64,000 nt of DNA from NCBI GenBank assembly GCA_000798955.1, contig JTLC01000015.1, forward strand, positions 1 through 64,000, written 5' to 3'. The stretch is from Firmicutes bacterium ZOR0006 (lineage in GTDB: Bacteria; Bacillota_I; Bacilli_A; Culicoidibacterales; ZOR0006). Under the pieces are notes generated by a model. The model made no database searches. It saw only the letters and a list, made by a program, of their open reading frames with translations, and was not told the DNA's origin. The position numbers and the translations under genes are program-made. Position 1 is the stretch's first letter. Every line of letters starts with the position of its first letter. Of this stretch, positions 2,455 to 6,470 are shown one piece after another.

Positions 2455-4140
2455 ATGAAAAAAAAATGGTGGCATGAATCAGTCGTTTATCAAATTTATC
2501 CACGCAGTTTTGCTGATAGCAATAATGATGGGATTGGGGACTTACCGGGAATTATTAGTAAATTAGATTACTTACAAACATTAGGAATTGATGTCATCTG
2601 GTTGAGTCCGGTTTATAAATCACCAAATGATGATAACGGCTATGATATCAGTGATTATCAAGATATTATGGATGAATTTGGGACAATGGCCGATATGGAC
2701 CGTTTATTGGCTGAAGCGAAAAAACGGAATATTAAAATTGTGATGGATCTTGTGGTTAACCACACATCAGACGAACACAACTGGTTTATTGAAGCCCGCA
2801 AAGGCAAAGAGAATGAATACCGCGATTACTATGTTTGGCGCGATCCAGCAGCAGATGGTGGGGCTCCAAATGATTTAGGTTCAACATTTAGTGGACCGGC
2901 ATGGCAATATGATGAAGCATCAGGACAATATTTTTTACATATTTTCAGTAAACGTCAACCGGATTTAAACTGGGAAAACCCAAAAGTACGTGAAGAAGTT
3001 TGGAATCTAATCAACTTCTGGCTTGAAAAAGGGATTGGTGGCTTCCGTATGGATGTGATTGATTTAATCGGGAAAATTCCAGATGAGAAAATTACCGGGA
3101 ATGGTCCAAAACTTCATGAATATTTACAAGAAATGAATCAAAAATCGTTCGGAAATTATGATGTTTTAACTGTCGGGGAAACATGGGGAGCAACACCAGA
3201 AATCGCGAAGTTATATTCAAATCCAGAACGCAATGAGTTAAGTATGGTGTTCCAATTTGAACATATTAGTTTAGATGAACAACCAGGAAAAGCGAAATGG
3301 GATTTACGTCCATTACAATTAACGGAGTTGAAAACGGTCTTTAACAAGTGGCAAACAGAGCTTGATGGCCAAGGTTGGAATAGTTTATTCTGGAACAACC
3401 ATGATTTACCACGCATCGTTTCGCGTTGGGGGAATGACAAAGAGTACCGTGTTGAAAGTGCGAAAATGTTAGCAACATTATTACACGGGATGCAAGGAAC
3501 ACCATATATTTACCAAGGTGAAGAGATTGGGATGACAAACGTTCGTTTTGCAACGATTGAAGAATATGATGATATTGAAACTAGAAATATGTATAATGAA
3601 CGGATTGAACAAGGCTATACAAACGAAGAAATCATGAACTCGATTTATGCCAAAGGTCGTGATAATGCCCGTACACCAATGCAATGGTCAAATGCCGCTC
3701 ATGGTGGGTTTACGGAAGGAACACCATGGTTAACAGTGAATCCGAACTATACCGAGATTAATGTGGATCAAGCATTAGCTGATCCAACTTCAATCTTCTA
3801 TCACTACCAAAAATTGATTCACCTCCGTAAAGAAAACCCAACGATTATCTACGGAACATTCAAAATGTTAGACTTTGCGAACGAATCAGTCTTCGCCTAT
3901 GTCCGTGAATATGAAGGGGATACAATTTTAGTAGTCTGCAACTTCACTGGAGAAGCAACAACGTTCAATTTTGAAGCTGCAAGTGAGTATGGGAATGGCG
4001 ATATTTTACTCGCGAACTACACAACAGCTCCAACATTAGCCTATAATATGGAACTCCGCCCATACGAAGCCGTAATGTATCGTTTAAGTGCTGATCACGG
4101 TGTTACCCAAAGTAAAAAAGGTAACATCGAGACGATATGA
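2455..4140 (+). CDS. dexB: GH13 alpha-glucosidase, glucan 1,6-alpha-glucosidase (DexB) type
   Basis: 561 residues. A cytoplasmic exo-alpha-glucosidase that would release glucose from isomalto-oligosaccharides or related short alpha-glucans. All GH13 landmarks are present: DLVVNHTSDEH near 98-108, nucleophile D200 in GGFRMDVIDLIG, acid/base E242 in LTVGETWGA, and the third carboxylate D317 in WNNHDLPR. The sequence follows streptococcal DexB closely from WWHESVVYQIYPRSF to the C-terminal beta domain. DexB homologues end near 'RPYEAVMYRLS'. Here the frame continues for about 16 residues that are encoded by the first unit of a structured repeat array, so the tail was probably added by the repeat. 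No signal peptide. Regulation is likely by the divergent AraC protein. Distinguishing DexB from MalL or TreC specificity is less certain than the family. Confidence 0.9.
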   Translation: MKKKWWHESVVYQIYPRSFADSNNDGIGDLPGIISKLDYLQTLGIDVIWLSPVYKSPNDDNGYDISDYQDIMDEFGTMADMDRLLAEAKKRNIKIVMDLVVNHTSDEHNWFIEARKGKENEYRDYYVWRDPAADGGAPNDLGSTFSGPAWQYDEASGQYFLHIFSKRQPDLNWENPKVREEVWNLINFWLEKGIGGFRMDVIDLIGKIPDEKITGNGPKLHEYLQEMNQKSFGNYDVLTVGETWGATPEIAKLYSNPERNELSMVFQFEHISLDEQPGKAKWDLRPLQLTELKTVFNKWQTELDGQGWNSLFWNNHDLPRIVSRWGNDKEYRVESAKMLATLLHGMQGTPYIYQGEEIGMTNVRFATIEEYDDIETRNMYNERIEQGYTNEEIMNSIYAKGRDNARTPMQWSNAAHGGFTEGTPWLTVNPNYTEINVDQALADPTSIFYHYQKLIHLRKENPTIIYGTFKMLDFANESVFAYVREYEGDTILVVCNFTGEATTFNFEAASEYGNGDILLANYTTAPTLAYNMELRPYEAVMYRLSADHGVTQSKKGNIETI

Positions 4141-4207
4141 CAAATAAGTGAACAATGGTAGCGTTCTGAGAACGCGGCCACCATTTTTTACGATTTGTCG
4201 AGTCTCG
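4128..4207 (+). terminator. Long hairpin of repeat unit U1, terminator-like
   Basis: Nested helices close from outside inwards: CGAGAC/GTCTCG, GACAAAT/ATTTGTC, AATGGT/ACCATT and GCGTTCT/AGAACGC. A T6 run follows the third helix on the 3' side. The dexB stop codon (4138-4140) lies inside the 5' arm. It could end dexB transcription and protect the 3' end. Confidence 0.75.
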
Positions 4208-4274
4208 AAGTGAGAAGCGCGTTATATCGTTTAAGTGCTGACGGTGATGCTACAACAAAGTAATACGGTAGCAT

Positions 4275-4353
4275 CGGAGTGAATGAAAAATGAGCGAACA
4301 TTGATAGGTGGCTGAGACACCGCCCATCAATGTTTGTGTTTTTTCGAACTCCG
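4275..4353 (+). terminator. Long hairpin of repeat unit U2, terminator-like
   Basis: The closing helix CGGAGT/ACTCCG (4275-4280 with 4348-4353), a middle GAAAAA/TTTTTC helix, the upper stem AACATTGAT/ATCAATGTT (4297-4305 with 4326-4334) and an inner GGTGG/CCGCC helix match the U1 layout with different stem sequences. A T6 run follows the upper stem. Confidence 0.7.
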
Positions 4354-4410
4354 AAACCGGAAGCATGTTATATCGTTTAAGCGTCTGATTGCGATGCCAT
4401 GAAATGGCAA

Positions 4411-4487
4411 CGGACTGATTTGTCAAAAAAGTGAGTGGGTGTAAAAACAGGGTAGTTTATCACCCAATTACGTTTTGACGAAGTCCG
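4411..4487 (+). other. Long hairpin of repeat unit U3
   Basis: CGGAC/GTCCG (4411-4415 with 4483-4487), GTCAAAA/TTTTGAC (4422-4428 with 4473-4479) and TGGGTG/CACCCA (4436-4441 with 4461-4466) give the same three-helix layout as U1 and U2. No T-run follows the upper stem, so it is less terminator-like. Confidence 0.65.
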
Positions 4488-4701
4488 TAGCAAGAAGCGC
4501 GTTATAAAGGCGAGTGCTGACACCGATGTCAAAAACTAAGTAGCAAAGTGGTGAAAGTGAACAAAATAAGGGATTTTGCACGGAAAATTTGCAGAATTCT
4601 GGCATGACACCATAAATGAAAAGTGATACAGTATGAAGTGTCACGAGTATTCAGAATTAAATATTACGGATACGAGTCTAAGAAGTAGAAGATAATACAA
4701 G

Positions 4702-4755: not shown

Positions 4756-5334
4756 ATGGGAAAGACAGAATTAGAAAAAATGATTGCTGGGGAATTTTAT
4801 CGCCCAGGCGATGAACAATTATCAGCAATGCGGAGACATGCTCGGAAGATGACACGGGTCTATAATGAAACTGATGTCGAAGAGAGTGATACACGCCAAG
4901 CGATTATTAAAGATTTATTTGGCTCAACAACGGAAAATTATTATATTGAACCACCATTTCGCTGTGACTATGGAAGTAATATTCATTGGGGTGACAATAG
5001 TTATGCCAACTTCAATTTATTAATCCTTGATATTGCTCCAGTAACAATCGGAAAAAACGTTATGTTTGCTCCAAATGTCACAATTTCATCAGCAACTCAC
5101 CCAATTATTGCGAGTGAGCGCAACAGTGGTTTAGAATATGGGAAGCCAATTGTAATAGGTGATAATGTATGGGTTGGGGCACAAGTTGTGATTAATCCAG
5201 GTGTTACAATTGGTGAAAATACAGTTATTGGTGCTGGCAGTGTTGTGACCAAAGATATTCCAGCCAATGTTGTTGCTGTCGGGAATCCATGTCGTGTTTT
5301 ACGACCAATCACCGAAGCCGATAAAATGATGTAA
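4756..5334 (+). CDS. maa: Sugar O-acetyltransferase, maltose/galactoside acetyltransferase type
   Basis: 192 residues, the usual length for LacA/Maa/NodL enzymes, which transfer acetyl from acetyl-CoA to a sugar hydroxyl in the cytoplasm. The N-terminus (EKMIAGEFYRPGDEQLSAMR) is the Mac domain. The rest is a left-handed beta helix of hexapeptide repeats (for example VWVGAQVVINPGVTIGENTVIG, cited as landmark region 138-160) with the family's catalytic-type histidine in SSATHPI. Start: ATG 4756 with AAAGGACAAC upstream. The gene is bracketed by structured-repeat arrays, and the downstream array starts at its stop codon. Its proximity to dexB suggests a role in detoxifying or exporting excess glucosides, but substrate is not determined by sequence. 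Confidence 0.88.
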   Translation: MGKTELEKMIAGEFYRPGDEQLSAMRRHARKMTRVYNETDVEESDTRQAIIKDLFGSTTENYYIEPPFRCDYGSNIHWGDNSYANFNLLILDIAPVTIGKNVMFAPNVTISSATHPIIASERNSGLEYGKPIVIGDNVWVGAQVVINPGVTIGENTVIGAGSVVTKDIPANVVAVGNPCRVLRPITEADKMM

Positions 5335-5605
5335 GTGCTGACGTCGGTGCCAAAGATTAAGTGCTGATCACGGTGTTATCCAAAGTAAAAAAAGTAACAT
5401 CGAGACGATATGACAAATAAGTGAACAATGGTAGCGTTCTGAGAACGCGGCCACCATTTTTTACGATTTGTCGAGTCTCGAAGTGAGAGGCACACCGACG
5501 AATCAAGTGCTGACGGTGGTGCTACAGCAAAGTTTATAATGAATGAAAAATGAGCGAACATTGTCAGGTTGCTGAGGCACTCCCCATCAATGTTTGCTTT
5601 TTTTA
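5333..5605 (+). repeat. Structured-repeat array B (units U5-U7), near-copy of array A
   Basis: U5 (AAGTGCTGAC at 5333) is a 25-bp stub that begins in the maa stop codon. U6 starts at 5359 and U7 at 5505, 146 bp apart as in array A. Bases 5358-5488 match 4085-4215 with only two differences, at 4106 and 4120. U7 is a diverged copy of U2: the upper stem ACATTG/CAATGT survives but the closing helix is lost. The array fills most of the 344-bp gap before the next gene. Confidence 0.8.
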
Positions 5606-5678
5606 AGTTTAAAATCCGGAATCACCCAAGTTTTTAGCGAAACTACTAACATACAATTATTTTTAGGAGAAAGAAAAG

Positions 5679-6470
5679 ATGCTCAAACAACTGCAAGAAG
5701 AATTTGAAAAATTACCGGAAGTGGAAGCAATTGTATTAGGCGGGTCGACTGCTACTGGAGTGGCTGACTGTTATTCTGATTATGATATTTATATTTATGT
5801 TTCACAGATGCCAGCGCTCACTATTCGTGAACAAATTTTAAAATCTTTGAGCCAAACATACAGCTTAAATAATTTGGACTATGGTGTTGAAGATTTAGGG
5901 GTTTTTCTGGATGGCCAACACTATGAATTGATATATGGGACACTTGATAAGTTGGAGCAGCATCTAGTCACTGTTCGAAGTGGACAAGCAGCGCTTGGCT
6001 ATACGACTGGAGTATGGTGGACGCTGGCAAAATCACAAATTTTGTATGATGCGAATGGGCGATATGCCAAACTTCAAGCAAAATATCGCGAATACCCCCA
6101 GTCGTTACAGCAAGCAATTATTGAAAAAAATTTACCAATGTTAACAACAAAATCCGCAAACTTTGTCAATCAGTTGGAAAAAGCAATTCAACGACAAGAT
6201 ATTATCAGTATGAATCATCGGTATAGTGCAATAGTTGCGAGTGTTGCAGATATTTTATTTGCTTTAAATTATCATTTTCATCCTGGAGAGAAACGACTTG
6301 GGTGGTGGATTGCTCAACTTGAAATTCAACCCGAACGAACAGCACATCGCTTAGAGGCAATTACTGCTGAATTATACGAGCAACCGGAGCAATCATTGCT
6401 AGCATTACGCCGATTCATTTCAGAGCTTGAAGCCTTGTGTCTTAGACAGGATGAATCAAGTAAGGGGTAA
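5679..6470 (+). CDS. Nucleotidyltransferase-fold protein with DUF4037
   Basis: 263 residues. The N-terminus carries the minimal nucleotidyltransferase signature: GGSTATG at about 22-28 followed by SDYDIYIY, supplying the two acidic metal ligands. The remainder resembles the DUF4037 helical domain found behind such catalytic cores. Relatives include antibiotic-modifying nucleotidyltransferases, but most DUF4037 proteins have no known substrate and I would not call this a resistance gene. ATG 5679 follows TTAGGAGAAAG at a good distance. The gene stands between array B and a DUF1349 gene with no terminator-like hairpin of its own. Confidence 0.75.
   Translation: MLKQLQEEFEKLPEVEAIVLGGSTATGVADCYSDYDIYIYVSQMPALTIREQILKSLSQTYSLNNLDYGVEDLGVFLDGQHYELIYGTLDKLEQHLVTVRSGQAALGYTTGVWWTLAKSQILYDANGRYAKLQAKYREYPQSLQQAIIEKNLPMLTTKSANFVNQLEKAIQRQDIISMNHRYSAIVASVADILFALNYHFHPGEKRLGWWIAQLEIQPERTAHRLEAITAELYEQPEQSLLALRRFISELEALCLRQDESSKG

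Follow-up and report, generated by a model that had tools for sequence, protein, structure and literature searches.

What are the tandem units of about 145 nt that follow a glucosidase gene in Firmicutes bacterium ZOR0006, sharing an order of motifs while differing in the sequence of their stems, and what could their structure do at the end of a gene? We approached this question from a 64,000-nt stretch of DNA (the window), part of a 1.97-Mb draft genome. The analysis points to a stop-codon-anchored family of branched repeats confined, among the genomes searched, to a single genus, which probably acts as RNA.

Arrays of the unit in the window

The unit folds into a basal helix P1 (5 bp), a GA/GA internal loop, a second helix P2 (4 bp), and a three-way junction from which emerge P3 (about 7 bp plus loop) and a long arm consisting of P4 and P5 (7 bp each), separated by a 5/2 internal loop, with the hairpin P6 beyond P5. 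Two arrays of such units occur in the window (Table 1). In the first, the reading frame of the glucosidase gene enters unit 1 and continues 53 nt beyond the start of P1, to a TGA stop codon at 4138-4140; the linker that joins unit 1 to unit 2 carries TATCGTTTAAGTGCTGA at 4225, a repeat of the gene end at 4078. The degenerate fourth unit of this array yields no match to the covariance model built for the family. In the second array, the TAA stop codon (5332-5334) of the maltose-O-acetyltransferase-like gene overlaps the 5' end of the array, giving the junction TAA/GTGCTGA. The full unit of this array shares 98% identity with unit 1 across 135 nt but differs from it in its flanks. The last unit retains P6 and its T run, but its closing helices lack their 3' strands.

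The first-pass annotation of this DNA had placed tandem units at 4086, 4233 and 4379, which correspond to the three full units of array 1, and all helices that it named are present in the sequence. Of the seven units that it counted, four are full copies, the other three being partial or decayed. Correct as an observation, it had missed P1, P2, the GA/GA loop, the anchoring at stop codons, the copying of the linkers and the distribution of the family across the genome.

Table 1. Coordinates of the two arrays, the elements of unit 1 and the flanking genes in the window
Feature	Position	Strand	Evidence
Alpha-amylase-family glucosidase (oligo-1,6-glucosidase type), upstream of array 1	2455-4140	+	Pfam PF00128, PF16657
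Array 1, unit 1, full	4083-4226	+	covariance model match, 144 bits; fold z -6.8
Unit 1, P1	4088-4092/4216-4220		
Unit 1, GA/GA	4093-4094/4214-4215		
Unit 1, P2	4095-4098/4210-4213		
Unit 1, P3	4101-4107/4120-4126		
Unit 1, P4	4127-4133/4202-4208		
Unit 1, P5	4139-4145/4193-4199		
Unit 1, P6 hairpin	4148-4191		
Array 1, unit 1-unit 2 linker, in part	4227-4234	+	sequence
Array 1, unit 2, full	4230-4372	+	covariance model match, 132 bits; fold z -8.7
Array 1, unit 3, full, of a different body type and with a short P3 loop	4376-4506	+	covariance model, 108.5 bits; fold z -6.5
Array 1, fourth unit, degenerate, end of array; AGTGCTGACACCGATG start	about 4510-4650	+	sequence; repeat family D7
Maltose-O-acetyltransferase-like gene	4756-5334	+	PF12464, PF00132
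Array 2, first unit, truncated, begins at stop codon (gap 0)	5332-5354	+	sequence
Array 2, full unit	5356-5499	+	covariance model, 126.5 bits; fold z -5.5
Array 2, last unit, 3'-truncated	5502-5631	+	covariance model match, 43 bits
Nucleotidyltransferase-fold protein, downstream gene, same strand	5679-6470	+	Pfam PF18765, PF13228

Conservation of the fold and identity of the folded strand

Despite heavy sequence change, the units retain one secondary structure. Single units of the window have folding energies 5.5 to 8.7 standard deviations below those of dinucleotide shuffles. Among 14 hand-picked units, one of which supplied the structure being assessed, 98.0% of helix cells pair (75.4% when shuffled), both-sided, compensatory change is seen at 26 of 33 pairs, and the covariation score is 0.714, against 0.248 for shuffled sequences and no more than 0.13 when the partners are slid. 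In an alignment of 150 copies the corresponding values are 96.3% of cells pairing, compensatory change at 32 of the 33 pairs and a score of 0.822 against 0.212 shuffled; as this alignment was fitted to the covariance model, the 14-unit figure is the independent one. The excess of covariation is too large for either property of the alignments to explain. Features outside Watson-Crick pairing are likewise retained, namely the GA/GA loop (exact in 129 of 162 units), a GNTG junction, a GTT end and the 5/2 internal loop.

Read on the gene-sense strand, the helices contain 272 G-U pairs versus 34 A-C pairs. Since the complementary strand would show these counts reversed, the strand that folds is that of the upstream gene. 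The earlier proposal of selection on structure is supported by covariation far above both the shuffled and the slid controls, and its wording "RNA or cruciform" can be narrowed in favor of RNA, the pairing asymmetry speaking against a cruciform.

Two further structural peculiarities were observed. Type-A units (e.g. 4153-4182) often carry within P6 a compact conserved module, TAG-stem-CTGAGA-stem-GNCA, whose stems covary and which is possibly a protein-binding or tertiary motif. A short AT-rich member of the family is embedded in inverted orientation within other units, where by eye it sits at the P3/P4 junction; it is seen as minus-orientation matches of 117-118 bp at L125, L135, L165, L169 and L177, and occurs in both species that carry the family and in different body types. 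It could be either a nested insertion or a four-way-junction variant.

Copy number and phyletic range

The covariance model has 111 matches (E<=0.1) in the 1.97-Mb genome; the only sequenced sister species of the genus has 38. The model had no match in two genomes from a different family of this order, in the rest of 395 sampled genomes of the class or in 392 sampled genomes of the phylum, these class and phylum searches scoring few candidates per genome, such that distant relatives could be missed. Phages and plasmids (searched by DNA similarity) and viral contigs (by pattern scan) also gave no match. A family extending across the Lactobacillales is not supported, as only two species of one genus carry the unit among the genomes searched. 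In the window, Rfam gave 0 matches at the gathering threshold, the best permissive hits of 15-18 bits (E>5) being at chance level, and a tRNA search found none. The first-pass annotation, which did not recognize the family, had looked to further genomic copies, covariation and Rfam for a verdict; more than 100 copies were found, covariation is strong and Rfam has no matching family.

Many contigs of the genome (e.g. C28, C29, C33, C35, C36, C44, C45, C51 and C85) end in or beside arrays, which means that the assembly breaks at these repeats and that longer arrays are likely. With many arrays at contig ends, the true copy numbers are probably higher than those given here.

Anchoring of the arrays at gene ends

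Arrays, of up to 5 parsed units each, were read from the sequence stretches around the model matches. This defined 82 array starts, 65 of which have the end of a same-strand ORF, 80 codons or longer, close by; most of the others are cut off where a contig or locus ends. The arrays lie on the strand of the gene directly after its stop codon, in places before an ordinary terminator. P1 starts 0-9 nt past the upstream stop codon in 51 of the 65 arrays; in seven, including that of the window glucosidase, the reading frame of the gene extends 7-53 nt into the unit, in three a truncated unit begins at the stop codon, and one array lies 22 nt from the stop. The last three (L140:1841; L139, minus strand, 2043; and L181:2056) start immediately behind an ordinary terminator and its T run.

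The proteins encoded upstream look like products of core genes, which by eye we take to be dnaK, dnaJ, pgk, lepA, frr, ackA, ftsZ, obgE, priA, mutS, rnj, valS and ileS. Arrays that are read into by the gene include those of the presumed ValS and IleS (by eye; first units at L129 and L141). The repeat encodes the last residues of the glucosidase (window 4074-4140) and, by eye, of ValS and IleS; hence, a unit can supply the stop codon in place of that of the gene itself.

Evolution of the arrays: positions, linkers and bodies

The array positions are largely common to the two species. For 11 of the 16 sister-species arrays with readable upstream sequence, an array also follows the orthologous gene in the ZOR0006 genome, far above the roughly 3% expected under random placement among genes, and the sister ortholog of the window glucosidase has an array at the same place too. 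By eye, the sister sites at ackA, rnj, lepB, tlyA and priA lack an array and show an ordinary hairpin and T run shortly after the stop codon, no unit is seen at the sister mutS2, and the units found there at ftsZ, cpsD and ileS are diverged or decaying. At ackA of the ZOR0006 genome, the terminator is still present downstream of the array.

Linkers are homogeneous within each array and copy the end of the gene, whereas bodies are shuffled between arrays. The similarity of a gene end to its own linker is 0.72, versus 0.51 to those of other arrays (0 of 20,000 permutations), and that of the linker plus P1 within an array is 0.70, versus 0.555 when permuted (0 of 5,000). Unit bodies differ only slightly in this respect (0.59 within versus 0.54 between arrays), and near-identical bodies are found in separate arrays whose linkers are less similar. 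Arrays terminate in a 3'-truncated unit. The simplest account would be tandem duplication that includes the gene-end linker, together with exchange of bodies. Transposition is a possible route for the spread, but spread driven by a RAYT or a reverse transcriptase was rejected: no Y1 transposase (PF01797) was found in the ZOR0006 genome and no reverse transcriptase (RVT_1) in either species. These findings also give no support to the earlier idea of a hairpin-mobilized repeat of the simple Y1/RAYT kind. The sister species has one Y1 transposase (L205, G001:C2:103904-104269).

Comparison with known repeats

Bacterial interspersed repeats are mostly short palindromes. The Efar repeats of Enterococcus faecalis are about 170 bp long, form hairpins and lie near gene ends. 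They are similar to the present unit in these general features; the covariance model had no match outside the genus in the class and phylum samples. Efar is listed as a MITE (PMC3733652). Set against the terminal inverted repeats and the target-site duplication at a precise insertion that mark MITEs, the unit has an imperfect inverted repeat at its ends, formed by P1; its linkers copy the gene end, but its arrays end in truncated units, so that no clean duplication is seen.

The REP/BIME sequences of enterobacteria and pseudomonads resemble the unit in being high-copy and hairpin-forming, often directly past ORFs, and their clustering just downstream of genes is matched by the 0-9 nt spacing of those 51 arrays. 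However, REPs are simple palindromes of 20-40 bp with GTAG/CGTC tags, often alternate in orientation and are tied to RAYT (Y1) transposases, whereas the unit is a branched RNA of about 145 nt with a three-way junction, repeated head to tail, without the GTAG/CGTC tag and in a genome lacking a RAYT gene. BOX elements of Streptococcus pneumoniae (boxA-boxBn-boxC) are modular and non-autonomous, with a tandemly repeated module and a predicted RNA structure (PMC3049150). In BOX, though, only the internal boxB repeats between fixed ends, whereas here the whole unit repeats without distinct end modules; stop-codon anchoring and array-specific copied linkers do not figure in the passages considered (PMC3049150).

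A Rho-independent terminator is approached by units in which P6 is followed by a T run, found in 61 of 162 (38%) versus 1 of 162 shuffled. Yet most units lack this combination, and the P1-P3 core has no place in such a terminator; on the antisense strand terminator-like P6 hairpins are about equally common (72 of 162), and many body types have none. Accordingly, a simple terminator was rejected as the identity of the unit and termination cannot be its shared function; the modular terminator role suggested earlier does not suffice as an explanation, and some arrays may also serve as two-way terminators. An integron attC site, considered for the conserved GTT at the unit end, was dropped by eye, there being no matching AAC box at the 5' side, and the order of core bases, also by eye, does not fit a hammerhead. 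On the whole, the family would work most like REP/BIME clusters with BOX-like modularity while failing the defining features of both, and is best filed among the interspersed repeats of bacterial 3'-UTRs, as an uncatalogued member that is branched, anchored at stop codons and of unusually large size.

Functional interpretation and alternatives

The placement on the gene strand, together with strand-specific pairing, argues for action within the transcript. We favor, with modest confidence, a genus-specific, REP/BIME-like modular repeat of 3'-UTRs that acts as RNA. The arrays would be transcribed as 3'-UTR modules and work like the REP/BIME sequences of E. coli, the stacked domains blocking 3'-to-5' exonucleases and stabilizing the upstream message, while units with P6 followed by U's would terminate or attenuate transcription before it reaches the gene downstream. 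Tandem duplication that takes in the gene-end linker could create new units, whose bodies would then be swapped between arrays through recombination at the conserved ends. The conserved core (P1/P2, GA/GA and the junction) exceeds the needs of an exonuclease block and may bind a specific protein. A bolder version, which we regard as unlikely, sees in the unit a structured RNA of a new class, built from a conserved core that binds a protein or the ribosome and from arms that can be exchanged. It would join about 60 housekeeping mRNAs, at their stop codons, into one post-transcriptional regulon, and its spread would be aimed at the 3' regions of transcripts.

The same arrays might instead be the work of a selfish MITE/PATE-like element, mobile but non-autonomous, that is directed at the region just past stop codons and whose structure serves movement rather than the mRNA. 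The more than 100 copies, the empty sites in the sister species, the imperfect terminal inverted repeat that P1 forms at the unit ends (TAAGTGCT / AGCACGTTA), the movement of bodies between arrays and the inverted members seen within other units at the P3/P4 junction are all in keeping with such an element. We consider it a somewhat doubtful explanation, given that most array positions are common to both species while bodies diverge, that target-site duplication is not clean and arrays end in a 3'-truncated unit, that the Y1 transposase is missing from the ZOR0006 genome and the reverse transcriptase from both, and that tolerance of G-U is strand-specific.

The very tight spacing of 0-9 nt would also be expected of a strong structure acting on the terminating ribosome through stalling or trans-translation. 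Such action has been reported for REPs of E. coli lying up to 15 nt from a stop codon, and REPs near stop codons affect translation (PMC12306157). Such a role appears improbable: it leaves the tandem units further downstream unexplained, constitutive down-regulation seems unlikely for needed housekeeping genes (by eye, dnaK, pgk, ftsZ, valS and ileS), and three arrays come after terminators instead of stop codons. Finally, template switching can make matched stem changes without selection, and the units are near-palindromic, such that the arrays might be neutral tandem repeats whose compensatory changes arose by quasipalindrome correction. This we hold to be very improbable, as it accounts neither for the retained GA/GA loop, GNTG junction, GTT end and 5/2 internal loop nor for the G-U excess on one strand only, the anchoring at stop codons and the positions common to both species.

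Implications

The family presents a large branched RNA fold that selection maintains in more than 100 copies while their sequences diverge rapidly, and adds a candidate RNA family that is missing from Rfam. Its anchoring at the stop codons of core genes, with positions common to two species, offers a clean natural experiment on the role of a 3'-UTR repeat, and the same arrays offer one on the shuffling of bodies with retention of array-specific linkers.
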